DNA from: Spirosoma luteum DSM 19990
Lineage (GTDB): Bacteria; Bacteroidota; Bacteroidia; Cytophagales; Spirosomataceae
Reading direction: 5' to 3'
Length of the DNA: 64,000 bases
Assembly: GCF_000374065.1 (NCBI RefSeq)
Contig: NZ_KB893247.1
Coordinates: 21,998 to 85,997 of the forward strand
Within the stretch, counting starts at the first letter, position 1. The number at the start of each line of letters is the position of its first letter. The notes below the pieces were generated by a model. The model had not been told where the DNA came from. It was given only the letters and a program-made list of their open reading frames with translations, and did not search any database. Shown here piece after piece: positions 23,617 through 54,883 of this stretch. A program made the position numbers and the translations under genes.

Positions 23617-23657
23617 CTTAGGGCTTCTGGAATCAGCGTATCAAGGGCTGGAAATCA

Positions 23658-27185: not shown

Positions 27186-27269
27186 ACCAACCCGGTAGCG
27201 ACCCACCACATTGGGTAAAATGGATTAACTTGTGGCTTATCAGAAAAGCAATCTTACGGCTAACGACCA

Positions 27270-34571: not shown

Positions 34572-34652
34572 GTGCTTTTGTCATCCCGACGCAGGAGGGA
34601 TCTCAAGCGTCAGGGTAATTAGATACTTCCTGCGTCGGGATGACAAAAGCAC
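34572..34652. repeat. REP-like palindrome (25-bp perfect arms)
   Basis: The arm at 34572-34596 (GTGCTTTTGTCATCCCGACG and five more bases) is exactly complementary to 34628-34652, with a 31-base spacer that includes GGGATCTCAAG. The core TCATCCCGACG-x-AGGAGGGATCT resembles dispersed palindromes common in Bacteroidota genomes. It lies between two co-directional minus-strand genes and may also attenuate transcription. Confidence 0.75.
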
Positions 34653-39216: not shown

Positions 39217-39432
39217 TTACCCTTCATAGTCCGGAGAGATGGGTGAGCGCCTGAATTCATTGGGCGTAATGCCCACGTATTTTTTGAAAAACTGACTAAA
39301 ATCAGGCTGGTCGGCGAAGCCAATAAGCTGGCTGATTTCCTGCAACGTCCGGGCGGTTTGAAGCAGCAGCGCTTTACTTTCTTCCAGCAAGCGATTTTTG
39401 ATGACTGTGCTGATGGGTTGCTCGGTAACCAT
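39217..39432 (-). pseudogene. fragment of an AraC-family regulator (second HTH)
   Basis: The 71 residues include IKNRLLEESKALLLQTARTL, EISQLIGFADQPDFSQFF and KKYVGITPNEFRR. This is the C-terminal half of an AraC/XylS DNA-binding domain. The sensor domain and first HTH helix are missing, so it is most likely a truncated relic of a second regulator beside the intact AraC gene. Confidence 0.75.
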
Positions 39433-39555
39433 CTAGTTCCTTCGTCACAAAAACTCCTTACACAAAACGGGGAAGAAATTATGGATTGTCGTCAACCGGG
39501 CATATAGTGAAGTAATGAGACTTCCCCTTACGCGTAACTATCGCCGGTAAAAGGC

Positions 39556-40443
39556 TTAGTTCATCAGGCGGTATTCACTGGGTGACACACCCACTTTTTG
39601 CTTGAAGAACCGGGTAAAATGCTGCGAATATTTAAAGCCCATTTCATAAGAAATTTCACTGATGGACTTAGAGGTATCAAAGATGCGTTCTTTGGCTAGA
39701 TCAATCAGACGAAGCTGGATGTATTCCAGCGCCGATTTGCCGGTTTCTTTCTTGATTAAATCGCCAAAGTAGTTGGCTGACAGGTGCAATTCACCGGCGA
39801 AGCGGGCTACCGTTGGAACACCATCGGTTTTCAGCTTATCTCCTGCCAAATACTCATTTAGTTTCTGCTCAAACTGCTCAATAATACCGTGGTTGGCATG
39901 CTCACGGGTGATAAACTGACGGTCGTAGAAACGTAAACAATATTTCAGCAGCAATTCAAGATTGGCTACAATCAACTTCTTGCTATGCCGATCAATATTT
40001 TGAGAAACTTCGGTGGCAATATTCGCAAAACAGACATCCACAAGGTCTCTTTCTTTTTCTGAAAGATGCAGGGCTTCGTTGGATTGATAGCTGAAAAACG
40101 AATAGTCGTGAACTTGTTTGCCTAAGCTAGTGCCTTTTATAATGTCGGAATGAAAGATGAGGGCTTTGCCAAAGGGTTGATGGATTTCCCCTTCCGGTTC
40201 GCTTGTGATAATCTGCCCAGGTCCAAAAAAGACGACAGTGCCCTCGGCATAATCATAGTATTTGTTACCGTATCGCAGATCACCACAGTGGGTCTCCTTG
40301 ATAATAATGGCATAAAAGTCCAGCGTAAACTTCGTTCTTTCCAACGGGGCGGATTTATTTAAATCAACCAGACTGATGAGCGGGTGCTGCGTCTTGTTGT
40401 TATGCCTATCGCAGAACTTTTTTATGGTATCGTAGACGATCAT
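39556..40443 (-). CDS. AraC-family transcriptional regulator
   Basis: This 295-residue regulator has an N-terminal cupin-like sensor region (about 40-150) and a C-terminal double HTH (about 200-295: TVARFAGELHLSANYFGDLI, SISEISYEMGFKYSQHFTRF, FKQKVGVSPSEYR). It is divergent from the redox island that starts at 40601, so it probably activates those genes in response to an aldehyde or related small molecule. The inducer is inference. Confidence 0.9.
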   Translation of the reverse strand: MIVYDTIKKFCDRHNNKTQHPLISLVDLNKSAPLERTKFTLDFYAIIIKETHCGDLRYGNKYYDYAEGTVVFFGPGQIITSEPEGEIHQPFGKALIFHSDIIKGTSLGKQVHDYSFFSYQSNEALHLSEKERDLVDVCFANIATEVSQNIDRHSKKLIVANLELLLKYCLRFYDRQFITREHANHGIIEQFEQKLNEYLAGDKLKTDGVPTVARFAGELHLSANYFGDLIKKETGKSALEYIQLRLIDLAKERIFDTSKSISEISYEMGFKYSQHFTRFFKQKVGVSPSEYRLMN

Positions 40444-40554
40444 CGACTTGTTTTTAGGTCAAAGCTATAGACGAAAACAGTGGGTCACCACGGAAACAGT
40501 GAAAGTGGTAAGTAAAACCGTAAAATGTATAAAAGTAAGTCTATAGATGCCAGG

Positions 40555-40562
40555 TAATTTTG
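40555..40562 (+). promoter_or_regulatory. -7 box before the cyclophilin-like lipoprotein gene
   Basis: TAATTTTG matches the Bacteroidetes consensus TAnnTTTG exactly, 38 bp before the ATG at 40601. No clear -33 TTTG is present, which fits an activator-dependent (AraC) promoter. Confidence 0.5.
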
Positions 40563-40600
40563 CAGTGGATTTACTTGGCCACCCCTATAATCGTCTGTAA

Positions 40601-41068
40601 ATGAAGATCCTCGTTCTATTTTTCTTTCCACTCCTGCTACTCATCGGTGGTATGGCCTGCAAAACGGATGATGGCCTGGTTTCCGTGCAATCCGGCACTG
40701 AAAACAACGATCCGAATATAATGCGCAATCAATTAAAAATTACCATTGGCACCCGTACGTTCAGGGCAACGCTCGGCAGCAATGCCGCTATAACCGCATT
40801 CAAAGCCCGGCTACCCCTGACTATCTCCATGAAGGAGTTGAACGGGAATGAGAAGTTTACGGACCTGACCAACGACTTGCCCACAAACGCCACGAAACCC
40901 GGTATCATTCAAACGGGCGATTTGATGCTCTACGGCAGCAACACGCTGGTGCTTTTTTATGAATCGTTTCAGACATCATACAATTATACAAAACTGGGGC
41001 GTATTGATAACCCCGCGGCACTGGCTGCCGCCGTGGGCACCGGAAGCGTTACGGTTACTTTTGAATAA
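40601..41068 (+). CDS. cyclophilin-like fold lipoprotein
   Basis: This 155-residue protein has a lipoprotein signal (LLLLIGGMAC, Cys20). The mature part is the bacterial cyclophilin-like domain: LKITIGTRTFRATLGSNAA, TAFKARLPLTISMKELNG, GDLMLYGSNTLVLFYESF, and GRIDNPAALAAAVGTGSVTV. These small beta-barrels are not proven prolyl isomerases and often sit beside oxidoreductase genes. A second intact copy is at 47943 and a broken one at 41142. Confidence 0.85.
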   Translation: MKILVLFFFPLLLLIGGMACKTDDGLVSVQSGTENNDPNIMRNQLKITIGTRTFRATLGSNAAITAFKARLPLTISMKELNGNEKFTDLTNDLPTNATKPGIIQTGDLMLYGSNTLVLFYESFQTSYNYTKLGRIDNPAALAAAVGTGSVTVTFE

Positions 41069-41141
41069 GTCTGCTCAAAAAGAAAAGGCAGCCACCTATG
41101 GTTCAGCAAATGGAATTAAATAAAACATAAAAAGGAAGTGC

Positions 41142-41457
41142 ATGAAATTAAAAATAACCATCGGTCAAACTGTGCTAACAGCTACGATGTATGATAATCC
41201 AACTGCTGCCGATTTTATTGCACTGTTGCCTTTGACCCTTACCCTTCAGGATTATGCGGCCGACAAAAGATGCACCTGCAGGATATAAGCCATCAGTTGG
41301 GGATATAACCTTTTATGCACCTTGGGGTAACCTTGCCATCTTTTATAAAGGCTTCAGTTATTCAAATGGTTTGATTGTTATGGGCAAGATAGATTGAGAT
41401 ATGCGTGTTTTAAAACAGTCTGGATCGGTTCAGGCTACTATTGAGCTTATTGGTTAA
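41142..41457 (+). pseudogene. broken cyclophilin-like gene
   Basis: From ATG 41142 the frame reads MKLKITIGQTVLTATMYDNP and LTLTLQDYAADK, then shifts near 41270. The continuation in another frame is AGYKPSVGDITFYAPWGNLA, FYKGFSYSNGLIVMGKID, an in-frame TGA, then RVLKQSGSVQATIELIG and a stop at 41455. One frameshift and one internal stop thus disable a homologue of the 40601 gene without a lipoprotein leader. Confidence 0.8.
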
Positions 41458-41471
41458 CCTAACTTAATAAA

Positions 41472-41969
41472 ATGAAACTCATTATGACAAAGATAAAAAT
41501 GTTGTCAGCGAGCATTTGCCTGCTTCTGTTGACTGTCGGTTGTAGTCAGAAAGCTGCTGATAATAAAAGCAGTAATCAAGTAGAGGCTATTTTTCCTAAA
41601 GGGGAATTAGGACCGGCCCAAAACTTCACCGGTAAGGCATGGGCCTACAGTTTGGTTGCCAATGATAGTACGTACAATACGCTGGTGGGCAACGTCTATT
41701 TTGAGCCGGGTGCCCGAAGCAACTGGCACATTCATCCGGCCGGACAGATGCTGCTCATTACCGATGGCGTGGGCTACCACCAGATAAAAGGCCAGCCCCG
41801 GCAAACGATCAGGAAAGGCGATGTAGTAAAGTGCCCGCCCAACGTCATGCACTGGCACGGTGCCAGCCCTGATACTGGTATGCAGCAGATCTATATCCTG
41901 CCCAATACGGAAAAAGGAATTGTGAAATGGCTGCACCCGGTCTCGGATGAGGAATATGGGGCTAAGTGA
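41472..41969 (+). CDS. cupin-domain lipoprotein
   Basis: This 165-residue protein has a lipoprotein signal (LLLLTVGC, Cys24). The cupin core is FEPGARSNWHIHPAGQMLLI (H86, H88, Q92) with later ligand His in NVMHWHGASP, the metal site of small (R)-mandelonitrile-lyase- or CMD-associated cupins. The end KWLHPVSDEEY is shared with the cupin at 54339. An alternative start is ATG 41484. A near-identical stretch is duplicated at 46101-46405. Confidence 0.85.
   Translation: MKLIMTKIKMLSASICLLLLTVGCSQKAADNKSSNQVEAIFPKGELGPAQNFTGKAWAYSLVANDSTYNTLVGNVYFEPGARSNWHIHPAGQMLLITDGVGYHQIKGQPRQTIRKGDVVKCPPNVMHWHGASPDTGMQQIYILPNTEKGIVKWLHPVSDEEYGAK
41668..41955. repeat. direct repeat, copy 1 (inside the cupin gene)
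   Basis: These 288 bp recur, with only scattered substitutions plus one 16-bp insertion, at 46101-46405. The two copies flank the first molybdenum hydroxylase operon in direct orientation, so recombination between them could delete it. Confidence 0.85.
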
Positions 41970-42149
41970 GTCACAATCTAAAATTAGATGGTACAACATG
42001 ATGGAAAGTAATATCAAGGGTCACCTGTCGCTTTGGCATAATGGCCTCAAGCCGTAAATACTGATCTAGGTACGCCCTCAGTAACACTACCTAGTACACT
42101 GATTTATATAGCGAAGTGGATATTGATTAACCCCATAAATCGGAATACG

Positions 42150-42788
42150 ATGGAAGAGACAAACGAGTCGACGATAAGTCGGCGTGAAATGATTGTTGGA
42201 ACGACCGCTGCGATTGCCGCTATCACCCTGGCGAACGTGATGGGCACCCAGGCGGCTCCGCATTCAGTTCCCCTGTCGCTGGCGAAGGTATCATTTACCG
42301 TGAATGGGCAATCCCACGACCTGGAAATGGATACCCGAACGACCCTGCTCGATACCCTCCGGGAACACCTGCACGTTACGGGCACCAAAAAAGGCTGTGA
42401 CCACGGGCAGTGTGGCGCGTGCACAGTACTGGTCAACAACCAGCGGATCAATTCCTGTCTATCGCTGGCTCTCCAGCATCAGGGCGATACCATCACGACC
42501 ATTGAGGGGCTGGGAACACCAGACAAGCTCCATCCCATGCAGGCGGCATTCATCAAGCATGATGGCTATCAGTGTGGCTATTGTACCCCAGGTCAGATTT
42601 GCTCAGCCGTAGCGGTGCTCAACGAAATTAAAGCCGGCATACCCAGCCACGTGAGCGCCAGTCTGTTGGATACACCACAGGTCACCAATATGGAACTGCG
42701 CGAACGGATGAGTGGCAACATCTGCCGCTGCGGGGCTTACTCCAATATTGCCGAAGCGATGAGTGAAGTGGCTCAGAAGCAAGCCTAA
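42150..42788 (+). CDS. [2Fe-2S] subunit of periplasmic aldehyde oxidoreductase (PaoA-like), set 1
   Basis: The 212-residue electron-transfer subunit starts at ATG 42150 (MEETNESTISRREMIVG), whose Arg pair and hydrophobic stretch form a Tat-type leader. The first cluster uses GCDHGQCGACTVLV with a later Cys (RINSC). The second uses YQCGYCTPGQIC and NICRCGAYSN. In the xanthine oxidase family these two clusters pass electrons between Moco and FAD. It is followed 60 bp later by the FAD and Moco genes, giving the S-M-L subunit order of paoABC. Confidence 0.92.
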   Translation: MEETNESTISRREMIVGTTAAIAAITLANVMGTQAAPHSVPLSLAKVSFTVNGQSHDLEMDTRTTLLDTLREHLHVTGTKKGCDHGQCGACTVLVNNQRINSCLSLALQHQGDTITTIEGLGTPDKLHPMQAAFIKHDGYQCGYCTPGQICSAVAVLNEIKAGIPSHVSASLLDTPQVTNMELRERMSGNICRCGAYSNIAEAMSEVAQKQA

Positions 42789-42848
42789 ATCACCAGCTCA
42801 TACCCGATCCTAATTAATCCGTAGCCAGCCCTAAATCAACAAAGGCTT

Positions 42849-43799
42849 ATGAAAACTTTCACCTACGAGCGGGCAAGCACACCCGCCGAAGCCGCGGCTG
42901 CCTCGGCCCGAACGCCGGGGGCTAAATTCCTAGCCGGGGGTACCAACCTGCTCGATTTGATGAAGCTGGAAATCGAAGCCCCACAGCATATCATCGATAT
43001 TGGTAAAATTGGCCTCAACAAGATCGAATCAACCCCAACTGGCGGTCTGCGCATCGGCGCCCTGGTGAGCAATACGAATCTGGCGGCTCACCCCATCGTA
43101 CGCCGGGATTACGGGCTGCTGGCCAGGGCGCTGCTGGCGGGCGCATCGGGGCAGTTGCGCAACAAGGCTACTACGGCCGGTAACCTGCTGCAACGTACAC
43201 GCTGCCCCTATTTTTACGATACCAACCAGCTTTGTAACAAGCGCGTGCCCGGCAGCGGGTGCGCGGCCATTGCCGGATTTAGTCGGCAACTGGGCATCAT
43301 CGGTACCAGTACTTCGTGCATCGCTACCTATCCGGGCGACATGGCCGTGGCTATGCGCGCCCTCGATGCGACGGTTGAAACGGTAAAAGCCAACGGGGCC
43401 AAACGAACCCTTTCGCTGGACCAGCTTTACCGCCTGCCGGGCCAGACTCCGCACCTGGAAACGACACTGGAGAAAAACGAACTGATTACCACTGTCGTCC
43501 TGCCGCCACCCGTGGGTGGGGTACATATCTACCACAAGGTGCGCGACCGTAGCTCTTACGCCTTTGCCCTGGTCTCAGTAGGGGCTATTCTCAAGAAAGA
43601 TGGCACAGGCCGGGTAGCTGTTGGGGGGATAGCCCCCCGACCCTGGCGGATTGAGTCGGCCGAACCACTGCTGCCATCCGGGGCGAAGGCATTTACCGCT
43701 CAACTCCTGAAAGGAGCCCGACCCACCAAAGAAAACGAGTTTAAGCTAGCCCTGGTTGAACGAACCCTGGCGGCCGTTTTAAACGAAGCCAAGCACTGA
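42849..43799 (+). CDS. FAD-binding subunit of aldehyde oxidoreductase (PaoB-like), set 1
   Basis: This 316-residue CO dehydrogenase flavoprotein-type subunit has the FAD motif [15 protein letters not shown] and [34 protein letters not shown] plus a further Cys (GSGCAAI) is the extra cysteine insertion known to hold a [4Fe-4S] cluster in PaoB-like subunits. It would act in the periplasmic complex. Its stop is 1 bp before the Moco gene. Confidence 0.9.
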
Positions 43800-43800
43800 C

Positions 43801-46011
43801 ATGAAATTTGAAACGCCTGCCGGAACCAACCCAATCGACCAGCTCAAGGTCATTGGGAAACCAACCGACCGCATCGAAGGCCCGCTGAAAACAACGGGAA
43901 CGGCTACATACGCCTACGAACACAATGACGAAGTTACGAATCCCGCTTATGGATACGTTGTGGGTGCGGGCATTGCCAAAGGCCGCATAAAGGCCATCGA
44001 CCAGACGAAAGCAAAAGCCGCGCCCGGTGTACTAGCCATCGTAACGGCGGCCAGTGCCGGGCCGCTCAAGACGGGTCAGTTCTACGTCGACCGGCTGCTG
44101 GCCGGGCCAGACATCGACCATTACCACCAGGCGGTCGCCGTGGTGGTGGCCGAGACCTTCGAGCAGGCCCGCGCTGCGGCTTCACTCCTGAAAATAAGCT
44201 ACACAAAAACCAAAGGAGCGTTCGATCTGGCAGCCGCCAAAGACTCGGCACCCCTTATCAAGCAGGGTCAGTTTAGTCCACCCCCGACAACGAACGTGGG
44301 GAATTTTGAGGGAGCCTTTGCGTCGGCCCCGGTCAAGCTGGACGAAACCTACACCACCCCCGACCAGACCCATGCCATGATGGAGCCTCACGCAACCATT
44401 GCCAAATGGGACGGGGATAAGCTGACGTGCTGGGCATCCATTCAACAGATCAATTGGGGCGTTCGGGACATAGCTACGGTGCTGGGTATCCCGAAAGAGA
44501 ATATCCGGCTCATATCGGCCTTTATTGGTGGCGGCTTCGGCGGGAAAGGTACCGTCCTGTCCGACATTATCGCGGCTGCCCTGGCGGCACGGGCCGCGGG
44601 TCGACCGGTAAAAGTAACCCTGCCCCGGCCGCTGATTGCCAATAACACGACCCACCGTCCCGCCACGATCCAGCGCATCCGCATTGGGGCCACTCCCGAC
44701 GGAACCATCACCGCTATCGGGCACGAAAGCTGGTCAGGTAATTTGCCCGGCGGAATATCCGAAACGGCCACCGCAGCGACCCGGCTGCTGTACGCGGGCG
44801 CCAATCGGTTTACCCAACTCCGGTTAGCCGTTCTCGATCTGGCCGAAGGAAGTGCCATGCGGGCACCGGGGGAAGCCACAGGGATGATGGCGCTGGAAAT
44901 CGCCATGGATGAGCTGGCCGAAAAACTGACCATGGACCCCGTGGCCTTCCGTATTAAAAACGATACGCAGGAAGACCCCGGAAAACCCGGCCGTAAATTT
45001 TCATCCCGCAAACTGGTCGAGTGTCTGCAAACCGGGGCCAAGCAATTTGGCTGGAACAAGCGGCAAGCTAAACCCGGCACCGTTCGAGAGGGTCAATGGC
45101 TGATCGGGATGGGCGTGGCATCGGCCATCCGGGGGGCACCCATCCTGAAGTCGGCCGCCCGCGTTCGGTTGAGCCGGGAAGGCATCGTGACGGTCGAGAC
45201 CGATATGACCGATATTGGAACGGGTAGTTACACCATTATCGGGCAAACGGCGGCCGAGATGATGGGCATTAGCCTAGATAAAGTGGTCGTCAAACTGGGC
45301 GATTCAACGTTTCCCGAATCACCCGGCTCGGGTGGACAGTGGGGAGCGGCCTCCGCTACATCGGGCGTATATGCCGCCTGCGTCAAACTGCGTGAAGCGG
45401 TGGCCAATTCACTGGGCGTTAGCCTCGAGGAAGCCGAGTTTGTGGGTGGACAGGTACGCGGGGGTAACCGCAGCTATCCGCTGGGCGACGCAGCTAAAGC
45501 CACCGAGCTGGTTGTCCAGGATGAAATGACCTACGGAACCCTTTCCAGGGAGTATGCGCAGGATGCCTTCGGGGCTCATTTCGTGGAAGTGGGCGTAAAC
45601 AGCTATACCGGGGAGATCCGGGTCCGACGAATGCTGGCGGTTTGCCATGCCGGGCGTATTCTGAATCCCAAAGCCGCCCGCAGTCAGGTCATCGGTGCCA
45701 TGACAATGGGCGTGGGCGCGGCCCTGATGGAAGAACTGGTGGTGGATAAACAGGTTGGTTTCTTTGTCAACCACGACCTGGCAGGCTATGAAGTGCCCGT
45801 TCATGCTGACATTCCGCATCAGGAAGTCGTACTGCTCGAAGACCTCGACCCGACCATGTCGCCCATGAAGGCCAAAGGTATTGGTGAACTGGGTATCGTT
45901 GGCGTAGCGGCCGCGGTTGCCAACGCTGTTTATAACGCCACAGGGATTAGGGTTCGCGAATACCCCATTACTCTCGATAAGCTGATTGGTAAACTCAGCA
46001 TCAATGGGTGA
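43801..46011 (+). CDS. molybdopterin-binding catalytic subunit (PaoC-like), set 1
   Basis: This 736-residue large subunit of a xanthine oxidase-family enzyme oxidises aldehydes to acids, probably with a molybdopterin-cytosine dinucleotide cofactor. Visible are FIGGGFGGKGT (Moco loop), MRAPGEATGMMALEIAMDEL, GSGGQWGAASATSGV and the catalytic Glu region GIGELGIVGVAAAVANAV. It has no leader of its own, as expected when the small subunit carries the Tat signal. No XdhC/PaoD-type maturation chaperone is in the window. Confidence 0.92.
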   Translation: MKFETPAGTNPIDQLKVIGKPTDRIEGPLKTTGTATYAYEHNDEVTNPAYGYVVGAGIAKGRIKAIDQTKAKAAPGVLAIVTAASAGPLKTGQFYVDRLLAGPDIDHYHQAVAVVVAETFEQARAAASLLKISYTKTKGAFDLAAAKDSAPLIKQGQFSPPPTTNVGNFEGAFASAPVKLDETYTTPDQTHAMMEPHATIAKWDGDKLTCWASIQQINWGVRDIATVLGIPKENIRLISAFIGGGFGGKGTVLSDIIAAALAARAAGRPVKVTLPRPLIANNTTHRPATIQRIRIGATPDGTITAIGHESWSGNLPGGISETATAATRLLYAGANRFTQLRLAVLDLAEGSAMRAPGEATGMMALEIAMDELAEKLTMDPVAFRIKNDTQEDPGKPGRKFSSRKLVECLQTGAKQFGWNKRQAKPGTVREGQWLIGMGVASAIRGAPILKSAARVRLSREGIVTVETDMTDIGTGSYTIIGQTAAEMMGISLDKVVVKLGDSTFPESPGSGGQWGAASATSGVYAACVKLREAVANSLGVSLEEAEFVGGQVRGGNRSYPLGDAAKATELVVQDEMTYGTLSREYAQDAFGAHFVEVGVNSYTGEIRVRRMLAVCHAGRILNPKAARSQVIGAMTMGVGAALMEELVVDKQVGFFVNHDLAGYEVPVHADIPHQEVVLLEDLDPTMSPMKAKGIGELGIVGVAAAVANAVYNATGIRVREYPITLDKLIGKLSING

Positions 46012-46012
46012 T

Positions 46013-46421
46013 ATGAAAAATAATAGTAAAGGGAAGGTGATCGTCATTACAGGGGCAAGCAGTGGTATGGGCGAAGCGGCAGCCAGGCACTTGTCAACCC
46101 GTACGTACAATACGCTGGTGGGCAACGTCTCTTTCGAGCCGGGTGCCCGAAGCAACCGCTTCGGCGGACCGATGGCACATTCATCCGGCCGGACAAATGC
46201 TGCTCATTACCGATGGCGTGGGCTACCACCAGATAAAAGGCCAGCCCCGTCAAACGATCAGGAAAGGCGATGTAGTAAAGTGCCCGCCCAACGTCATGCA
46301 CTGGCACGGTGCCAGTCCTGATACCGGTATGCAGCAAATCTATATCCTGCCCATTACGGAAAAAGGAATTGTGAAATGGCTGCACCCGGTTTCGGATGGA
46401 GAATACACCAAAGATAATTAA
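46013..46421 (+). pseudogene. chimeric relic: SDR N-terminus joined to a frameshifted cupin
   Basis: ATG 46013 begins KVIVITGASSGMGEAAARHL, a clear SDR cofactor motif, and then switches at about 46101 into a nearly exact copy of the cupin at 41472. That copy carries a 16-bp insertion (CGCTTCGGCGGACCGA, 46157-46172) that replaces SNWHIHP with a frameshift. The downstream cupin frame (WHIHPAGQ through WLHPVSDGEYTKDN) is intact but lacks its start and leader. It is not expected to make a working protein. Confidence 0.85.
46101..46405. repeat. direct repeat, copy 2
   Basis: This is a near-identical copy of 41668-41955 with one 16-bp insertion at 46157-46172. It marks a recent duplication across the molybdenum hydroxylase operon. 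Confidence 0.85.
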
Positions 46422-46432
46422 AGCAAAAAGCC

Positions 46433-47710
46433 ATGAAGCAGATGACTAAATCAACTTGTAAACTACTGATACTACTGGTAGCCTCAGTAATCATATCACT
46501 GGTTACTACTATGAATGCAATTGCCAAAATCACTTTTTCAAAAGCACAGCCGGTTGAAACATATACCGTAACGCTTGTTCCGGCCGAAAACGGTTCTTAT
46601 ACAATTACGCCCACCATTCCGGAAGACGGTAAACTACCGGCGGGCACCATACTAACCGTTAAAGCAAAGCCAGCATCCGGTTTTAGTTTGGATGCGGTTT
46701 ACTACACCGTAAAGGGAGGCATGTGGGGAACGACAAGCTACGAGAGCTTTTCGCCTACCACGAAAATTGCCGTGACAAAAGACATGGCTGTCGGGGCAAC
46801 ATTTGTTCCCGGTTCACTGGTGGAGAACATCAATGTAACGCAGGACATCGTTTATGCCAAGCCAGGAATCAAGCCCCTGAAGTACGATGTCTTCTCACCG
46901 AAAGAGGCCAAAAATCTTCCGTGTATCATCATTATTCATGGTGGCGGTTGGTCTTCCAACAATGAAGACATCATGCGGAGCCTGGCGCGTGAACTGGTGA
47001 AAGGTGGCCGCTATGTCGTATTCAGTATTGACTACCGGTGGATTAACAAGCTGGATGGAGAAACAAAGCCTACTCACATGCATCAATTGATTGATGATGT
47101 TTTTGGGGCTATAGCGCATATCCAGGAACATGCTGCACAGTACGGTGGCGATCCAACCCGCATTGCGGTTACGGGCGACAGTGCCGGTGGTCATTTAGCT
47201 GAAGCAGCGGCAACCCTTAGTCCACTTATTGGCGACGGTGGTTTTGGTATAACGAGTGGAGTTTACCAGTATATGCCAAGCTACCTGCCGAAAGGAAAAT
47301 CAATTGTCGACGTAAAGAATGAGATTACCAGGGCGATCAAGGCTGTGGCACCCAGTTATGGGCCGTCCGATGCGGCTGACTTCAAAATGTTTGTGGAGCA
47401 AACAGACCAGGGGTATTGGGATGCCATCTCTCCCATAAAGCATGTTGCCAACGTTCGCGACCGTGTTCTTCCGCACTTCATTGTGCGTGGCACCGCAGAT
47501 GCACTCGTCACCCATGACGTGGTGCAGCGGTATGTAGATGTGCTGAAAGCGGCCGGACAACCCGTTCAATACAGTCAGGTGGACGGTGCCGGGCACGCCT
47601 TTTTTGATTGGAAGCCAGACGCAGCCACAAGAGCAACATTTGCCCGGTACGGTGTACCCTACGCAGCTCAAATGCAGGCCTTCTTCAACACTGTTTTTTA
47701 CAAGGGTTAA
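46433..47710 (+). CDS. exported alpha/beta hydrolase (BD-FAE/Aes-like esterase)
   Basis: The protein has 425 residues with an N-terminal signal (LLILLVASVIISLVTT). A beta-rich region of about 100 residues (VTLVPAENGSYTITPT) is followed by an alpha/beta hydrolase. The oxyanion motif is IIIHGGGWSSNN, the nucleophile Ser is in VTGDSAGGHLAE, the Asp is in VRGTADALV, and the His is in GAGHAFFDW. Relatives are acetyl, feruloyl or carboxyl esterases. It lies inside the redox island directly after the chimeric relic. Confidence 0.88.
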   Translation: MKQMTKSTCKLLILLVASVIISLVTTMNAIAKITFSKAQPVETYTVTLVPAENGSYTITPTIPEDGKLPAGTILTVKAKPASGFSLDAVYYTVKGGMWGTTSYESFSPTTKIAVTKDMAVGATFVPGSLVENINVTQDIVYAKPGIKPLKYDVFSPKEAKNLPCIIIIHGGGWSSNNEDIMRSLARELVKGGRYVVFSIDYRWINKLDGETKPTHMHQLIDDVFGAIAHIQEHAAQYGGDPTRIAVTGDSAGGHLAEAAATLSPLIGDGGFGITSGVYQYMPSYLPKGKSIVDVKNEITRAIKAVAPSYGPSDAADFKMFVEQTDQGYWDAISPIKHVANVRDRVLPHFIVRGTADALVTHDVVQRYVDVLKAAGQPVQYSQVDGAGHAFFDWKPDAATRATFARYGVPYAAQMQAFFNTVFYKG

Positions 47711-47728
47711 TACGGGTTATTTTTTGAC

Positions 47729-47839
47729 ATGATAGACGTAAAAAATAGTAAAGCGTTCGGCACAGAAGCAGCCGAAGCGCCTTTGAACCGTGGTGTCAAA
47801 TATCGCTTCGTCATTGACATGGCTTCGCTGAAAAAATAA
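47729..47839 (+). pseudogene. internally deleted alcohol dehydrogenase relic
   Basis: A 36-residue frame reads MIDVKNSKAFGTEAAEAPL, then NRGVKYRFVIDMASLKK. The first half matches the N-terminus, and the second half the extreme C-terminus, of YahK-type dehydrogenases; compare KGDVRYRFVIDMATL at the end of the intact gene at 52582. About 310 codons between are missing. Confidence 0.75.
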
Positions 47840-47942
47840 GCGCGGTCTTGTTTGCCCGCAAATCCAGTTGCTCAAATCCAAAGGAGTTAATAATGACCGG
47901 AAAAATGTGCTGGATAAGGAAGTCTGTTAAAAGATAAATACC

Positions 47943-48428
47943 ATGAACTATTCATTTGTCATCGGTTTCATCCTTTCTTCGTTGTTCACCAGCTTAGCGT
48001 CCCGCGATAAAAATGAGGCTATGTTGGTAAACTCCGCAGCGGACATCACTAAGGGGAATAGTACGCCTAATTTAAACGAAAGTCAAATGAGAATTAAGGT
48101 TGGAACCCGTACGTTCACAGCCACGCTGTATGATAATGCTACAGCCACTGCATTCAAAGCACGGTTGCCCATGACCGTGACGATGACCGAACTGAACGGC
48201 AATGAGAAGTACGCTGATTTACCTGACAACCTACCCGTTAAGGCATCGAATCCCGGCGCCATTCAAAACGGCGATTTGATGCTGTACGGAGCTAATACCC
48301 TGGTGCTCTTTTACAAATCGTTTTCCACTCCCTACAGTTATACCAGAATGGGGCGAATCGACAACCCGACGGGGCTTGCTGCCGCCCTGGGTTCTGGAAA
48401 CGTGATGGTCACGTTTGCCCTAGAGTAA
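47943..48428 (+). CDS. cyclophilin-like fold protein, second copy
   Basis: This 161-residue paralog of the 40601 product has IKVGTRTFTATLYDNATATA, FKARLPMTVTMTELNGNEKY, GDLMLYGANTLVLFYKSF and GRIDNPTGLAAALGSGNVMV. The N-terminus is hydrophobic (MNYSFVIGFILSSLFTSLA) but lacks a lipobox Cys, unlike copy 1. It precedes the second molybdenum hydroxylase operon as copy 1 precedes the first, so a module of cyclophilin-like plus three-subunit enzyme was duplicated. Confidence 0.82.
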   Translation: MNYSFVIGFILSSLFTSLASRDKNEAMLVNSAADITKGNSTPNLNESQMRIKVGTRTFTATLYDNATATAFKARLPMTVTMTELNGNEKYADLPDNLPVKASNPGAIQNGDLMLYGANTLVLFYKSFSTPYSYTRMGRIDNPTGLAAALGSGNVMVTFALE

Positions 48429-48485
48429 TCCTTACGGTTTTATTACCATCCATACGCGTATCTGAACGTTACTAAAACTCGCTTT

Positions 48486-49121
48486 ATGAACCAGCATGAA
48501 CATTTCGGTGATGAGTTAGACTCATCCGATTCATCCCGACGAAACTTTTTAAAGCAGTCATCGGCATTGGCAGCTCTGGCCCTAACGCCAGCAGCTGCCA
48601 ATGCCGCCATCCACAACGGCCTGGACGAAAAACTGGCCGCTGCTATTGAGCAGCTGCCGCTTCAGGTCGACATAAACGGTACGATGCAAAAACTCTCCAT
48701 TGAGCCACGCGTAACGTTGCTCGACCTCCTGCGCGAGCAACTTCACTTGACGGGTACTAAAAAAGGGTGCGACCACGGTCAATGCGGGGCCTGTACCGTA
48801 CACGTCGATGGTCAACGAGTCAATTCCTGTCTCACATTGGCCATGACCACCGAAGGCTGTAAAGTGACGACGATTGAAGGGCTGGGCAGCGTGGATCAGA
48901 TGCACCCCATGCAGGAAGCCTTCATTAAACACGACGGCTTCCAGTGCGGGTACTGCACGCCCGGCCAGATCATGTCGGCTGTAGCCTGTATCCGGGAAGG
49001 ACATGCCAACAACCCCGACGAGATTCGGGAATATATGAGCGGGAACATCTGCCGCTGTGGCGCCTACGCCAATATTGTGGATGCGATTATGGACGTAAAA
49101 CAAGGAGGGGCCAGGGTATGA
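48486..49121 (+). CDS. [2Fe-2S] subunit of aldehyde oxidoreductase (PaoA-like), set 2
   Basis: The 211 residues begin with a textbook Tat leader (SSRRNFLKQSSALAALAL). Both clusters are present: GCDHGQCGACTVHVDG with VNSC, and FQCGYCTPGQIMSA with NICRCGAYANI. Its stop overlaps the next start (ATGA at 49118-49121), showing translational coupling with the FAD subunit. Paralogous to 42150-42788. Confidence 0.93.
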   Translation: MNQHEHFGDELDSSDSSRRNFLKQSSALAALALTPAAANAAIHNGLDEKLAAAIEQLPLQVDINGTMQKLSIEPRVTLLDLLREQLHLTGTKKGCDHGQCGACTVHVDGQRVNSCLTLAMTTEGCKVTTIEGLGSVDQMHPMQEAFIKHDGFQCGYCTPGQIMSAVACIREGHANNPDEIREYMSGNICRCGAYANIVDAIMDVKQGGARV

Positions 49122-50137
49122 ATCCATTTCAATATACGCGGGTGACAACCCCCAAAGCCGCCGTTTCGGCCCTTTCTCAGGAAAGCGGCACGTACTTTCT
49201 GGCAGGCGGCACTAACCTCATCGATTTGATAAAACGTGAGGTCGTGGTACCCGAGCGGCTGGTCGACATCAACAAACTACCGCTGGCAACCATCGAGAAA
49301 ACGGCAACTGGTCTGCGGATTGGGGCCATGGCGAAGAATTCAGCCGTGGCCGAACATGAGCTGGTGAAAAAACACTTTCCGTTGCTGTCGATGGCCCTCA
49401 ATGCCGGTGCCTCAGCGCAACTACGTAACATGGCGACCGTAGGCGGAAACATGATGCAGCGCACCCGTTGCCCCTATTTTTACGATACGTCTATGCCCTG
49501 CAACAAGCGCAGCCCCGTGCAGGCCGGTCCGGACAAGGGGAAGCCAAACGGCCCGTCGGGCTGCGGGGCTATCGACGGTTACAACCGGATGCACGCCATT
49601 TTTGGGGGCTCAACGAAGTGCATCGCTGTGCATCCCAGTGACATGTGCATTGCACTCGTGGCACTGGATGCGACGGTAAACGTGTCGGGGCCGAAGGGCG
49701 ACCGGAAAATTCCGTTCAGTGATTTCCACCGGCTCCCCGGCGATACACCCCAGAAAGACAACACGCTGCTGCCCGGCGAACTGATTATGTCCGTTGACAT
49801 TCCAACTAACAAGTTTGCCGACAATTCGCACTACCTGAAAGTACGCGACCGGGCCTCATACGCCTTTGCGCTTATCTCGGTAGGCGTGGCAGTTGATATG
49901 AAGCGGGACGTAATCCAGGACATCCGGCTGGCAATGGGCGGGGTAGCGCACAAGCCCTGGCGGCTGACCGAAGCCGAGCAGTTTTTGCGCGGCAAATCCG
50001 CTACGGAGGCCAATTTTAAACAGGCTGCCACGATCGCAATGAACGGCGCGAAAGGCTACGGCGAGAATGATTTCAAACTCACCCTCGCGCCCAACTCGAT
50101 TATCGACGCGCTGAAAACAGCCACTAAAACCGCCTGA
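49118..50137 (+). CDS. FAD-binding subunit of aldehyde oxidoreductase (PaoB-like), set 2
   Basis: The gene encodes 339 residues from the coupled ATG at 49118 (MNPFQYTRVTTPKAA). It has [36 protein letters not shown] and the cysteine insertion FYDTSMPCNKRSPVQ with SGCGAIDG for a [4Fe-4S] cluster. A longer open frame from 48944 lies inside the iron-sulfur gene and is not used. Confidence 0.92.
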   Translation: MNPFQYTRVTTPKAAVSALSQESGTYFLAGGTNLIDLIKREVVVPERLVDINKLPLATIEKTATGLRIGAMAKNSAVAEHELVKKHFPLLSMALNAGASAQLRNMATVGGNMMQRTRCPYFYDTSMPCNKRSPVQAGPDKGKPNGPSGCGAIDGYNRMHAIFGGSTKCIAVHPSDMCIALVALDATVNVSGPKGDRKIPFSDFHRLPGDTPQKDNTLLPGELIMSVDIPTNKFADNSHYLKVRDRASYAFALISVGVAVDMKRDVIQDIRLAMGGVAHKPWRLTEAEQFLRGKSATEANFKQAATIAMNGAKGYGENDFKLTLAPNSIIDALKTATKTA

Positions 50138-50139
50138 TC

Positions 50140-52377
50140 ATGACAAAAGACCTGAAAAATCCGCCTATCGACCGAATCGATGGACGGATGAAAGTAACCG
50201 GCGGAGCCCAATATTTCGCCGATTTTGAGCTGCCCAACATGGCCTATTGCGTCATTGTCGGGAGCGAAATTGGCCGTGGTACCATCGCCAGTATCGATAC
50301 CAAAAAAGCGCAGGGCGCACCGGGCGTACTAGGGGTATTTACGCATCAGAACATGCCCCCCATTCCGGGTTGGGACGCCCCCGTTGGCGGAGAAGCCGAC
50401 GGACCAGCGCCCAAGCCGGATACAAAAGAGAAATACCGGATACTGCACACCCCCAAAATTCTGTTCGATGGGCAACCCATTGCGATGGTGGTGGCTGATA
50501 GTTACGAGCGGGCCACGTATGCGGCTTCACTGGTGAAGGCGACCTATGCCAAACAGGCGGCCCGGACTGATCTGGAAAAGCACTTAGCCGAAGGTATTGC
50601 CCCCGGAAGGCCTGGTTCGAGCGATTACCTGCGGGGCAAAGCCGACGGTTATCAGTCGGCACCCGTTACGCTGGAAGCCAACTACACGATTCCTGTTGAG
50701 GTGCACAACCCGATGGAACTGCACGGTATTCTGGCCCACTGGACCGGAGCAGATTCGCTGATGATCTACGCCAAAACGCAGGGTGTCAATGCTACGCAAA
50801 ACGCGATGGCCGAAGCCTTCAAGATCGACCCCAAGAAAATCCATGTGCATACCGAATTTATGGGGGGCGGCTTTGGTATGGGGCTACGTACCTGGCCGCA
50901 GGAAACGGCGGTGGTGGCCATTGCCAAAAAAATTGGACGCCCGCTGAAGCTGGTAGTCACCCGCAACCAGATGTTTACGCTGGTGGGCCACCGGCCCTAT
51001 ACGGTGCAGACCATCAATATGGGCGCCGATACCAACGGCAAGCTAATCGGGATTGCCCACGCGGCCACGGCCGAAACGGCCAGCTACGAAGACTTTACGG
51101 AAGCGACTGTCAACATGACCAAGTTCATGTACGAATGCCCGAACGTGAGCACCCGCTACCGCATCGTGCGGCTCGACCGGAGCGTGCCCATCTGGATGCG
51201 CGGACCGGGTGAAGCAACGGGGGCCTTTGCGCTGGAATCGGCGATGGATGAAATGGCCCACAAGCTGGGGCTCGACCCCATCGAGTTCCGTCTGCGCAAC
51301 TATACCGAAACCGATCCTGAACATAACCGACCTTATTCGAGCAAAAACCTCAAAGAAGCCTATCAGCGCGGAGCCGAAGCCATTGGCTGGAACAAACGTC
51401 AAAACCAACCGGCCAGTCAGCGCGAGGGCGATTGGCTCATTGGCTACGGTATGAGCACCGGAACGTTCAACGCGTTCCGGTGGGAGGCTTCGGCCCGCGC
51501 CCTGCTTAACGCCGATGGTTCGCTGACAATACAGAGCGCCGTAACCGACATTGGCCCCGGCACGGGCACCGCCCTGACCATGATTGCCCACAACGTACTG
51601 GGTGTGCCGCTCAACAGGATTAAGGTGGCCTACGGCGATACGTCCCTGCCGAAAGCGCCCACGCAGGGTGGTTCGGCCATTGTTTCGGCGGTAGGGTCGG
51701 CGGTGTACGATGCGTGTACGAAAATCAAAAATCAATTGGTTGAATTAGCTATCAAAGACGGTAGTCCCCTGGCGGGTCGGCAGGCGGATGAGTTGACGCT
51801 GACCGATGGGGTGCTTTTCGTTGAAAAGGAACCGGAAAAAAAAATAGTTGTCAGCGAGCTAATGTGGACCAACAATCTGACAGTAGTCGACAAAAGTGCG
51901 GATTCGAAAGGCGGGCCGGAACTGGGCAAGTACTCGATGTATTCGTTTTCGGTGCATTTCGTGCAGGTACGGGTCAACCCGCTAACGGGTGTGGTGCGCG
52001 TGTCTAAAGCTGTGAGCGTGGCCGATTCGGGCCGGATTATCAGTCCCAAAACGGCGGCCAGTCAGATGATTGGGGGTGTTGCGGGGGGCATTGGGATGGC
52101 CCTGACGGAAGAAGCCGTCATTGACCACCGCTTTGGCCGATTCGTGAACAATAACCTCGCCGACTACCACGTAGCGGTTCACGCCGACGTGCCCGCCATC
52201 GAAACGATTATGATCGACAAGCCCGACCCCATCATTAACCCGATGGGTGCCAAAGGTATGGGCGAGATTGCGCTGATCGGTTTTGCCGGTGCGGTAGCCA
52301 ATGCGGTTTTCAACGCCACGGGCCAGCGTGTCCGGGACTTGCCCATTACCCCCGACAAGCTGTTGCGGACTGTTTAA
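50140..52377 (+). CDS. molybdopterin-binding catalytic subunit (PaoC-like), set 2
   Basis: This 745-residue Moco subunit has FMGGGFGMGLRTWPQE, MRGPGEATGAFALESAMDEM, AVTDIGPGTGTALTMIAHN and the catalytic-Glu end GMGEIALIGFAGAVANAV. It starts 2 bp after the FAD subunit stop. Moderate divergence from set 1 in the substrate-facing regions suggests a different aldehyde range. It exits the cell only with the Tat-tagged small subunit. Confidence 0.92.
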   Translation: MTKDLKNPPIDRIDGRMKVTGGAQYFADFELPNMAYCVIVGSEIGRGTIASIDTKKAQGAPGVLGVFTHQNMPPIPGWDAPVGGEADGPAPKPDTKEKYRILHTPKILFDGQPIAMVVADSYERATYAASLVKATYAKQAARTDLEKHLAEGIAPGRPGSSDYLRGKADGYQSAPVTLEANYTIPVEVHNPMELHGILAHWTGADSLMIYAKTQGVNATQNAMAEAFKIDPKKIHVHTEFMGGGFGMGLRTWPQETAVVAIAKKIGRPLKLVVTRNQMFTLVGHRPYTVQTINMGADTNGKLIGIAHAATAETASYEDFTEATVNMTKFMYECPNVSTRYRIVRLDRSVPIWMRGPGEATGAFALESAMDEMAHKLGLDPIEFRLRNYTETDPEHNRPYSSKNLKEAYQRGAEAIGWNKRQNQPASQREGDWLIGYGMSTGTFNAFRWEASARALLNADGSLTIQSAVTDIGPGTGTALTMIAHNVLGVPLNRIKVAYGDTSLPKAPTQGGSAIVSAVGSAVYDACTKIKNQLVELAIKDGSPLAGRQADELTLTDGVLFVEKEPEKKIVVSELMWTNNLTVVDKSADSKGGPELGKYSMYSFSVHFVQVRVNPLTGVVRVSKAVSVADSGRIISPKTAASQMIGGVAGGIGMALTEEAVIDHRFGRFVNNNLADYHVAVHADVPAIETIMIDKPDPIINPMGAKGMGEIALIGFAGAVANAVFNATGQRVRDLPITPDKLLRTV

Positions 52378-52581
52378 GAAGGCTTGAATCAACACACGCG
52401 TATAAAGACAATCAACGAAACGGAAAACGCTGCTGGCACGGTAGCATCCTTACTTACAGCTTGTAAAGCTGGATTAAGGTCAGCCGGTCGGATTCGGGCA
52501 GGAAAACATTAACCCTGCCTTATCGCTTATAAAACGGCTGGCTAAAGGTCATTTACGCCAGATTTTTAACTAAAACAAACA

Positions 52582-53625
52582 ATGATTACAACAAAAGGAT
52601 ACGCGGCTCAAACCGAAGATTCGGGACTCGCTCCCTGGGATTTCCAACGTCGAGAACTGGGTGCTCACGATGTTCATTTCGATATTCGTTACTGTGGTGT
52701 CTGCCATTCCGATATTCACCAGGTTCGGGGCGAGTGGGGCAATAGCATGTATCCCATGGTGCCCGGTCACGAAATTGTTGGCCGCGTGGTGGCGGTTGGG
52801 ACCGAGGTAAGTAAGTTTGCCGTGGGCGATCTGGCCGGTACGGGCTGCCTGGTCGACTCCTGCCGCGTTTGCGATAACTGCCAGCATGGGCTGGAGCAGT
52901 ATTGCACCAATGGCCACTCCCAGACGTACAATGGGCTGGAACAGGATAAAAAGACGCCTACCTACGGTGGCTATTCCAACACAATTGTAGTTCATGAGGA
53001 TTTTGTGCTGCATATTTCCGACAAGCTGGACCTGGCCGCTACGGCTCCCCTGCTCTGTGCCGGCATCACGACCTACTCACCCCTGCGGCACTGGAGCGTG
53101 GGTAAGGGCCATAAACTGGCGGTTGTGGGTTTGGGTGGCCTGGGGCACATGGGCGTAAAATTTGGCGTAGCCTTCGGGGCCGAGGTAACCGTTCTGAGCA
53201 CCTCGCCTGATAAAGAAGCAGATGCCAAAAAACTCGGTGCCCATAAATTTGTAGTCACCAGCGACCCGGCTCAACTCGAATCGGTAGCAGGCTATTATGA
53301 TTTTATTCTGGATACGGTTTCTGCCGAGCACGATTACAATGTGTACCTGTCCCTGCTAAAAACGGACGGGGTGCATATTTGCGTGGGTGCGCCACCAACG
53401 CCATCGGCTCTGCGGGCCTTTAGCCTGATTCCCGGCCGGAAAAGCATTGCTGGATCGAGTATTGGCGGGCTTCCCGAAACGCAGGAGATGCTGGATTTTT
53501 GCGCTGAACACGACATTGTTTCGGACATTGAACTCATCCCGATTCAGGACGTTGAAAAGGCCTACGAACGGATGCTGAAAGGTGATGTGCGCTACCGGTT
53601 TGTGATCGACATGGCAACGCTGTAG
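52582..53625 (+). CDS. NAD(P)-dependent zinc alcohol dehydrogenase (YahK-like)
   Basis: This 347-residue cinnamyl-alcohol-dehydrogenase-type MDR has catalytic zinc at YCGVCHSDIHQVRGEW and PGHEIVGRVVAVG. Structural zinc is at CRVCDNCQHGLEQYC. The cofactor motif VVGLGGLGHMGVKF is followed by LSTS, typical of NADPH-preferring aldehyde reductases. It reduces aldehydes to alcohols, the opposite direction to the two PaoABC-like oxidases upstream, together giving broad aldehyde detoxification. Confidence 0.92.
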   Translation: MITTKGYAAQTEDSGLAPWDFQRRELGAHDVHFDIRYCGVCHSDIHQVRGEWGNSMYPMVPGHEIVGRVVAVGTEVSKFAVGDLAGTGCLVDSCRVCDNCQHGLEQYCTNGHSQTYNGLEQDKKTPTYGGYSNTIVVHEDFVLHISDKLDLAATAPLLCAGITTYSPLRHWSVGKGHKLAVVGLGGLGHMGVKFGVAFGAEVTVLSTSPDKEADAKKLGAHKFVVTSDPAQLESVAGYYDFILDTVSAEHDYNVYLSLLKTDGVHICVGAPPTPSALRAFSLIPGRKSIAGSSIGGLPETQEMLDFCAEHDIVSDIELIPIQDVEKAYERMLKGDVRYRFVIDMATL

Positions 53626-53727
53626 TGCCCGGACGGTTCCGGTAACGCATTACATTCATCATCAACGGGGCCTGTTCGTTTGAGCAGACCCCCTCTTTTT
53701 AGTTTTGTTACTGCCTTCTTTTACTCT

Positions 53728-54303
53728 ATGAGTGCTCTTTCAGACCAAACCGATATTTTCCAGCGCCTGCAAGCTGGTGAGCCACTTCGTAAGGATGACC
53801 CGGAGTATGGCCAGTTTGGTGAAGTTGTAGCGCGTACCATCCGGTTGTGCGTCGAGATGAACGCAACGGCTACCGACATCGATCAGGTACGTACCCAACT
53901 GAGCGATATTATCGGAATCGGAATCGACCCGTCGACCACGATTTTTCCTCCATTCCATACCAACTTTGGCCGGTTTATCCGGCTGGGTAAAAACATTTTT
54001 ATCAACCATGCCTGCTCGTTCCTGGATATTGGAGGCATCACTATTGAAGATGAGGTTCAGATTGGGCCACGAGTGAATCTTACCTCCGAAAACCACCCGT
54101 TGGACCCGGCGGATCGAACAACGCTGATTCCCCGCCCAATTGTGATCAAACGCAACGCCTGGATTGGCGCGGGAGCCACCATCTTGCCGGGTGTCACCAT
54201 TGGCGAAAACTCAGTCGTTGCCGCCGGTGCCGTGGTGAGCCGCGATGTGCCACCAAACACCGTAGTGGCGGGAGTTCCCGCTAAAGTTGTTAAGTATCTG
54301 TAG
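53728..54303 (+). CDS. left-handed beta-helix O-acetyltransferase (maltose/galactoside type)
   Basis: The gene encodes 191 residues from an ATG at 53728 ([14 protein letters not shown]). The hexapeptide-repeat acetyltransferase has [20 protein letters not shown], the conserved His loop TSENHPLDP, and the trimer coil [20 protein letters not shown] ending [10 protein letters not shown]. It moves acetyl from acetyl-CoA to a sugar or other hydroxyl. It follows the dehydrogenase by about 100 bp and shares its direction. Confidence 0.9.
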
Positions 54304-54338
54304 GTCAGGTGCTATTCTGTCTCAAAGCGATAGTCATT

Positions 54339-54734
54339 ATGGACATTACACGAATTGGTTCGCAGCCTTCAGCTAAAGGGCCGGAAGACTGGTTTAGTGG
54401 TGTTGTGCGCATTGACCCCTTATTTGCGGCCAATGACGCCCGACGGGCTGCCGCAGCGAGTGTCACCTTCGAACCCGGTGCGCGAACGGCCTGGCATACC
54501 CATCCGCTGGGGCAGACGTTGCTTGTTACTGCCGGTTGTGGCTGGGTGCAACGGGAGGGCGGCCCAATTGAGGAGATTCGTCCGGGTGACGTGGTTTGGT
54601 TTGAGCCTGACGAGAAGCATTGGCACGGGGCCACGCCCACTACCAGTATGACCCACATCGCCATGCAGGAAAACCTGAACGGGAACGTAGTTGACTGGCT
54701 GGAGAAAGTCAGCGATGAGCAATACCGGAAGTGA
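54339..54734 (+). CDS. small cupin-domain protein
   Basis: The gene encodes 131 residues from an ATG at 54339 ([20 protein letters not shown]). The cupin site is [20 protein letters not shown] with [17 protein letters not shown] and the ending [11 protein letters not shown]. It is a cytoplasmic relative of the lipoprotein cupin at 41472. The family is often found beside SDRs and YahK-like dehydrogenases; enzymatic role not established. Confidence 0.87.
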
Positions 54735-54771
54735 TTAAAAACGTCACCTTCACCAAGCAGTGGTTAATAAG

Positions 54772-54851
54772 AAATTCTTATCACTAGGTAAGAATTTACA
54801 ATTAGACTTTTCCAATAATTTTCTGTCTTTTTACTCTTAATAAAAAAAGAC
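54772..54851. promoter_or_regulatory. AT-rich upstream region with two palindromes
   Basis: AAATTCTTA (54772-54780) and TAAGAATTT (54789-54797) form a 26-bp palindrome. GTCTTTTT (54825-54832) and AAAAAGAC (54844-54851) form a second one 33 bp before the ATG at 54884. Either could be an operator or terminator in the gap between the cupin and the carboxylesterase gene. Confidence 0.4.
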
Positions 54852-54883
54852 GATGATTTCACCTTAGTATTCCTGAAACTACC

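Follow-up and report, generated by a model that had tools for sequence, protein, structure and literature searches.

Introduction

How did a compact run of aldehyde-handling genes come to stand among broken copies, and what might its cyclophilin-like proteins do there? The question is raised by an island at positions 39217-54734 of a stretch of DNA from the soil bacterium Spirosoma luteum DSM 19990 (the window, 64,000 nt, analysed as a whole). The genome (G000) measures 6.6 Mb, and the window is part of its contig C3. The original prediction, made from the sequence alone, described a duplicated aldehyde-redox island full of relics, with two modules of a cyclophilin-like gene and a PaoABC-type molybdenum oxidase, three cupin copies, a YahK-like reductase, an AraC regulator and four relics. 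All of these were present by Pfam matches and open reading frames (ORFs), and the description is correct as to content, with aldehydes as the presumed substrates.

The enzymes of the island are of known kinds, and comparison with relatives reveals much of its history. The island is probably a rearranged mosaic, controlled by AraC-type regulators and devoted to the handling of toxic aldehydes, in which two modules that are each intact elsewhere in Spirosoma now stand together. Module 1 would comprise AraC1, a cyclophilin-like lipoprotein, a true PaoABC and, formerly, a short-chain dehydrogenase/reductase (SDR). Module 2 would comprise a cyclophilin-like protein, a PaoABC-like oxidase, a YahK/Ahr-like reductase, an acetyltransferase, a hydroxynitrile-lyase-type cupin, a carboxylesterase and, formerly, the regulator AraC2. 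Rearrangement would have reduced AraC2 to a stump of 71 codons, fused an SDR to a cupin copy that was afterwards broken, removed most of the length of one reductase and left one cyclophilin-like gene to decay. The oxidases would be exported by the twin-arginine translocation (Tat) system and oxidise aldehydes in the periplasm, the reductase would reduce aldehydes that enter the cell, and the cyclophilin-like protein would most likely bind or modify a small carbonyl compound rather than isomerise prolines.

Gene content of the island

The intact genes were the following; profile scores are given against their cut-offs.

39556-40443, - strand: AraC1 regulator (HTH_18, 4.5e-19)
40601-41068, + strand: CYP1, cyclophilin-like lipoprotein (PF18050, Pfam 6.3e-31; lipobox-like GGMAC, read by eye)
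41472-41969, + strand: CUP1, hydroxynitrile-lyase-like cupin, marginally under the cut-off (NF049940, 136.9 bits against 140)
42123-42788, + strand: PaoA1, 2Fe-2S subunit with twin-arginine motif SRREMI, read by eye (NF008514 PaoA, 358.1 against 322)
42849-43799, + strand: PaoB1, flavin adenine dinucleotide (FAD) subunit with extra cysteines as in E. coli PaoB (5g5g_B, 1.7e-139, cysteines aligned)
43801-46011, + strand: PaoC1, molybdenum subunit (NF041671 PaoC, 1313.5 against 1180; 5g5g_C aligned over 1-732)
46433-47710, + strand: secreted alpha/beta hydrolase, BD-FAE (Pfam)
47943-48428, + strand: CYP2, cyclophilin-like (PF18050, Pfam 3.5e-35)
48486-49121, + strand: PaoA2-like subunit with twin-arginine signal SRRNFLK (NF008514, 254.2 against 322, below cut-off; TIGR01409, 19.5 against 16.7)
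49118-50137, + strand: PaoB2-like FAD subunit (5g5g_B, 2e-82)
50140-52377, + strand: PaoC2-like molybdenum subunit (NF041671, 600.6 against 1180, below cut-off)
52582-53625, + strand: YahK/Ahr-like zinc aldehyde reductase (ADH_N, 1.1e-23; NF047908 Ahr, 311.3 against 470, below cut-off)
53680-54303, + strand: hexapeptide acetyltransferase (Hexapep, 7.1e-12)
54339-54734 (ORF from 54309), + strand: CUP3, hydroxynitrile-lyase-type cupin (NF049940, 207.4 against 140; 4bif, 1.5e-68)
54884-56545, + strand: carboxylesterase, which continues the same gene run beyond 54734 (COesterase, 1e-90)

The trio of Fer2, FAD and molybdenum cofactor genes thus occurs twice by Pfam and ORFs (42123-46011 and 48486-52377), and all named genes from 40601 to 56545 share the + strand, whereas AraC1 is transcribed away from them. 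The alpha/beta hydrolase and the hexapeptide acetyltransferase are members of the run that the earlier description had not included, and homologues of the hydrolase (35% identity) adjoin cyclophilin-like genes in three other loci. Both cyclophilin-like proteins passed the gathering score of Cyclophil_like2 (PF18050), with 107.2 for CYP1 and 121 for CYP2 against 22.7. Thirteen intact genes, AraC1 and the hydrolase not among them, were each set against the best homologue available in the fetched loci. For 12 of them the ratio of nonsynonymous to synonymous substitution rates (dN/dS) was 0.04-0.15, and these genes are under purifying selection; CUP1 gave no value, as its dS was saturated, and the value for CYP1 is rough (dS 2.3). 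No tRNA genes that could mark an integration were found in the window.

The two oxidase sets belong to separate clades

A recent tandem duplication of one operon, with the spare copy now decaying, would be the simplest sense in which the island could be called duplicated, and the cupin copies CUP1 and CUP2 are indeed 91% identical over 305 columns (16 gap columns counted). This identity points to recent copying of a small segment. No such recent copying applies to the oxidase sets: PaoC1 and PaoC2 share only 36% identity, PaoA1 and PaoA2 56%, and CYP1 and CYP2 55%. A tree built on 39 PaoC rows (35 of them different) placed PaoC1 and PaoC2 in two separate, fully supported and old clades that each reach beyond the genus, one with rows of Dyadobacter, Pedobacter, Hymenobacter and Pricia and the other with rows of Larkinella and Dyadobacter; the long-branch warning for this tree concerns other rows. 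The 36% identity and the two clades rule out a recent duplication of the oxidase sets, and with both oxidases under purifying selection, tandem duplication is hardly credible as an explanation of the island.

Module 1 scored above the curated PaoA and PaoC equivalog cut-offs, and its PaoC1 and PaoB1 align with the E. coli subunits PaoC and PaoB over almost the full length. Module 2, in contrast, scored below both cut-offs, at about half that for PaoC, with the aldehyde oxidase 5y6q as the best solved relative of PaoC2, and by these scores is classed as PaoABC-like only.

The genome set comprised 59 genomes and the genus set 36 Spirosoma genomes, each with the own genome included. MoCoBD_2 was found at 14 places in the own genome, two of them in the island, and at 3 to 17 places per genome in the genus set; Spirosoma is a genus rich in molybdenum enzymes of the xanthine oxidase family.

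Relics and relatives

The broken genes in and between the modules were the following.

39217-39432, - strand: AraC2 relic, the C-terminal 71 codons, likely the former regulator of module 2 (placed by homologue ends)
41142-41445, + strand: frameshifted cyclophilin-like relic, split over frames (two hidden Markov model (HMM) pieces, one with an internal stop)
46013-46421, + strand: SDR-cupin chimera relic, its cupin copy being CUP2 (ORF and alignments)
47729-47839, + strand: remnant of a YahK/Ahr-type reductase, 36 codons (alignment with locus L038)

The AraC2 relic shares 82-90% identity with the ends of AraC regulators that are full length (315-346 aa) in seven relative loci, which indicates that modules once regulated separately now stand together in a rearranged mosaic. 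In the chimera, about 29 N-terminal codons of an SDR are joined in frame to CUP2 at the GTACGTAC stretch, and an insertion of 16 bases at 46157-46172, resembling a repetitive extragenic palindromic (REP) element, shifts the CUP2 reading frame. The reductase remnant lacks about 950 bases (about 316 codons) compared with the 365-aa homologue of L038, in agreement with the earlier estimate of about 310 deleted codons, and homologues located both this gap and the SDR-cupin junction. The cysteine of the CYP2 lipobox has been replaced by arginine, as CYP2 reads SLASR where L035 and L038 have SLASC in the alignment.

Complete versions of both modules were found in relatives. Module 2 of L044 is colinear with 48493-56004 of the window at 85-88% nucleotide identity and carries a full-length AraC2, the last codons of which match the stump at 39217-39432. 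L048, in genome G035, has a complete module 1 (AraC1, cyclophilin-like gene, PaoABC1 at 87% nucleotide identity, carboxylesterase and SDR), followed by an AraC2 stump with stops, a cyclophilin-like stump and then PaoABC2. The counterpart of the carboxylesterase at 54884-56545 comes after PaoC1 in L048 and after CUP3 in L044. In L049 and L055 the two modules are separated by a full-length AraC2, and PaoC2 is within 12 kb of four of the eight PaoC1 places of the genus set, window included. Outside the genus, Dyadobacter sp. Leaf189 (L115) has an AraC gene and a cyclophilin-like gene, one of each, in a row with PaoABC1 and PaoABC2, and the pairing of both oxidases may therefore be old and functional.

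AraC2 has decayed in two genomes, the own genome and G035, in one event or two. We considered an independent double loss and do not claim it, since one old event followed by rearrangement could account for both stumps.

The exact 16-base element TCGGTCCGCCGAAGCG that interrupts the cupin copy occurs at three places in the genome, the other two being C10:111042 and C13:114527, and another of its host genes is of the Uma2 type by eye. It consists of the hairpin CCGC-TTCG-GCGG plus the next base, and looks like a genus-wide REP-like mini-element: allowing at most one mismatch, it was found in 33 of the 36 genus genomes (own included) in up to 48 copies per genome, whereas the reversed control pattern gave 0-3 copies in each. 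Among the places listed, copies sometimes form inverted pairs about 45-140 bases apart.

Control region and regulators

The divergent interval between AraC1 and CYP1 holds a control region.

40444-40600, no strand: divergent control region with the AAAACCGTAAAATGTATAAAA block and the TAATTTTG element (alignment)

AraC1 homologues of 77-83% identity were found near cyclophilin-like genes in nine loci of the genus, and the AAAACCGTAAAATGTATAAAA block is present, in exact or near form, in all nine (identity at least 77%). The own genome contains one exact copy of this block and two with two mismatches. The TAATTTTG element resembles what we take to be the Bacteroidota -7 box. Seven AraC2 intervals share a different conserved block in the alignment; sites of this type in the window numbered 6 against 5.2 expected, which is not above chance.

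Since no further AraC gene is intact in the + strand run that begins at 40601, module 2 is now most likely driven via AraC1, with whatever signal it may sense, and by read-through from 40444-40600, or else would rely on other promoters in the run. Several points weigh against this picture of two modules merged under AraC1. The AAAACCGTAAAATGTATAAAA block is, from its conservation, a candidate operator, and module 2 would not need read-through if a promoter preceded 47943 or 52582. The AraC2 stump lies to the left of AraC1 here and between the modules in G035, so that more than one order of events is conceivable. There is also a third arrangement, seen in L038 (reductase, cyclophilin-like gene, acetyltransferase and cupin), and as CYP2 and the YahK remnant resemble it, two modules may be too few.

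Neighbours of the cyclophilin-like genes

The original prediction took cyclophilin-like proteins to be constantly paired with the oxidase sets and suggested that they serve these enzymes. In its most specific form this idea makes them prolyl isomerases dedicated to the folding of the exported PaoABC. PF18050 was found in 22 of the 59 genomes and PF20256 in 46. Outside the window, a PaoC1 or PaoC2 orthologue lay within 5 kb of 13 of the 21 congeneric PF18050 places (14 within 10 kb), against a chance expectation of 0.05 for the 5-kb pairing under uniform placement. Co-occurrence, which the earlier reading had offered as its own check, thus exists elsewhere far above chance and favours a service to the oxidases. 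The reverse association is weaker and speaks against a dedicated helper, with PF18050 within 5 kb of 11 of 23 PaoC2 and 3 of 7 PaoC1 orthologues (12 and 4 without a match), and within 10 kb of 12 and 5 (11 and 2 without). One of the PaoC2 places without a match, in G035, adjoins a cyclophilin-like stump, and two of the places without a match are in the fragmented genome G033.

The neighbourhood table of the genus covers 20 of these 21 loci (one had no labelled ORF), whereas the distance counts above use all 21 HMM places. Within 5 kb of the cyclophilin-like gene, AraC1 or AraC2 was found in 16 loci, PaoC1 or PaoC2 in 12 (and not in the other 8, a further point against a helper), a cupin in 12 and the acetyltransferase in 9. 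We also surveyed the best 80 of 549 confirmed PF18050 places, some of which are in Spirosoma and hence overlap with the genus set. The tally uses 78 loci, as two had no cyclophilin-like ORF by BLAST labels, and 25 of the 78 are truncated less than 5.5 kb from the cyclophilin-like gene on one or both sides; ORFs in the surveys were called by a simple longest-ORF method, and unlabelled neighbour groups of the wide survey were named by a later protein scan. Within 4 kb, AraC family genes were present in 47 loci, acetyltransferases in 46, alpha/beta hydrolases in 31, cupins in 28, PaoC-type genes in 15, PaoA in 13, PaoB in 12, and YahK and SDR genes in 8 each. Some of the PaoC-type genes at these 15 loci are distant members (11 have no less than 45% identity to PaoC1 or PaoC2, and 9 no less than 60%), and a PaoC-type gene was seen at 5.5-10 kb in only two loci, a concentration at close range that again suits the helper explanation.

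By these counts the cyclophilin-like gene tracks an AraC-controlled set at least as closely as it tracks the oxidase, and its product is a member of an AraC-type set that PaoABC joins often, not always. The pairing is therefore real and not constant. In the open-access library searched, none of the matches listed linked cyclophilin-like proteins to an aldehyde oxidoreductase or paoABC, or named Spirosoma in papers on molybdopterin or aldehyde gene clusters; cyclophilin-like with AraC and aldehyde matched only anti-HIV products, and there was none on cyclophilin-like proteins with a flavodoxin operon or with a Bacteroidetes gene cluster.

Fold and possible function of the cyclophilin-like protein

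AlphaFold modelled CYP2 with confidence from residue 48 to 160, with block means of the per-residue confidence score (pLDDT) of 97-99 over 51-160, and the model has a cyclophilin-type fold, as a folding helper would. Foldseek gave TM1367 (1zx8) as the best match of the model. The VIA-align Z scores were 15.4 for KslB, 15.1 for 3kop, 14.4 for McbB and 13.8 for TM1367, against 11.0-11.7 for prolyl isomerases among the matches listed; as scores within 1 count as a tie, KslB, 3kop and McbB are tied and TM1367 is tied with McbB. The CYP2 model likewise passed the fold test against the cyclophilin-like part of KslB and McbB, with 3kop equally near. No solved sequence relatives were found by phmmer, and two profile searches of the PDB gave weak matches, mostly to ribosomal protein eL38, with McbB not among them.

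Prolyl isomerases require a catalytic arginine. An alignment of 75 cyclophilin-like sequences shows E88 and Y133 in every row, and arginine reaches half of the rows in no column. A lipobox pattern matched 33 of the 75 but missed evident cases such as CYP1, and this count was not used. The domain also occurs inside longer proteins (360-422 aa) in four loci, and the one that was scanned (L136) is a flavodoxin fusion. The lack of a conserved arginine, with the better fold match to KslB, 3kop and McbB, makes a folding-helper role doubtful, and together with the AraC-set neighbourhood it makes it unlikely that the cyclophilin-like gene provides the oxidases with a prolyl isomerase. Of the earlier claim, the association with the oxidases stands, and the proposed service to them, at least as a folding helper, appears improbable.

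KslB and McbB catalyse condensations in which tryptophan reacts with either a keto acid or an aldehyde, according to the accessible parts of the two sources (PMC12513458, PMC7024544). The likeness to the cyclophilin-like part of these Pictet-Spenglerases led us to speculate that the PF18050 lipoproteins are carbonyl-handling proteins of the envelope. By binding aldehydes or keto acids, and possibly condensing these with an amine, they would carry out the capture step in an aldehyde defence that many Bacteroidota have under AraC control. We put this forward as a long shot, since a fold shared by a predicted model is a lead and not proof of shared activity.

Cupins and the cyanohydrin alternative

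CUP3 scored above the (R)-mandelonitrile lyase cut-off of NF049940 and CUP1 just below it. The closest solved relative of CUP1 is TM1010 (2f4p), and CUP3 matches, over ORF residues 11-141, 4bif, which we take to be the cupin hydroxynitrile lyase of Granulicella tundricola. These likenesses raise the alternative of a catabolic island for plant cyanohydrins, in which the cupin would cleave mandelonitrile-type compounds, PaoABC would oxidise the benzaldehyde and the reductase would make the alcohol. Of 17 congeneric CUP3-type places outside the window (at least 68% identity, one partial at 65%), 11 are within 10 kb of PaoC1 or PaoC2, as this alternative would lead one to expect, but 6 are not; 10 are within 10 kb of PF18050, 13 are near either and 4 near neither. 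Furthermore, cupins of this type may act as lyases only on the side. A cyanohydrin pathway seems unlikely, and we favour the handling of toxic aldehydes. No natural role of cupin hydroxynitrile lyases is stated in the accessible part of PMC10947199.

Other repeats in the window

Two stretches of about 3.6 kb (23600-27184 and 27212-30835) are 67% identical in the same orientation and apparently represent a tandem pair of related genes. The window also contains a pair of 84-base repeats with 83% identity (59813-59896 and 63086-63169) and, at 34572-34652, about 80 bases that match themselves in inverted orientation with 82% identity.

Significance and comparison with known systems

The function of PF18050 is the point of most value, as this widespread family, to which the searches made assigned no function, gains a repeatable gene context and an alternative to the prolyl-isomerase guess. 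In addition, a hydroxynitrile-lyase-type cupin is placed beside aldehyde oxidases, the island shows that one of two operons with regulators of their own can be deprived of its regulator, after which the two may merge, and the wreckage between the modules shows how such islands get reshuffled.

Module 1 resembles E. coli PaoABC (5g5g, 5g5h) in its three subunits, the twin-arginine motif on the A subunit, the extra cysteines of PaoB and the equivalog scores. It differs in its companions (AraC, a cyclophilin-like lipoprotein, cupins and reductases), and whereas E. coli PaoABC has a gene for a PaoD-type chaperone, none lies beside module 1; XdhC_CoxI, the PaoD family, has three places in the genome, none of them on contig C3. 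As PaoD is an accessory gene, the module 1 enzyme may still be a PaoABC. Module 2 is below the Pao cut-offs and nearer to 5y6q among solved structures. The CUP3 sequence is close to the 4bif-type hydroxynitrile lyase, with a predicted activity of this kind, and CUP3 sits within a run of aldehyde enzymes. Finally, CYP2 has a fold in common with TM1367, 3kop, KslB and McbB (Z 13.8-15.4 over 112-120 aligned residues), but at only 14-21% identity, and CYP2 is a single-domain, exported protein, so that its likeness to these proteins is one of fold alone.

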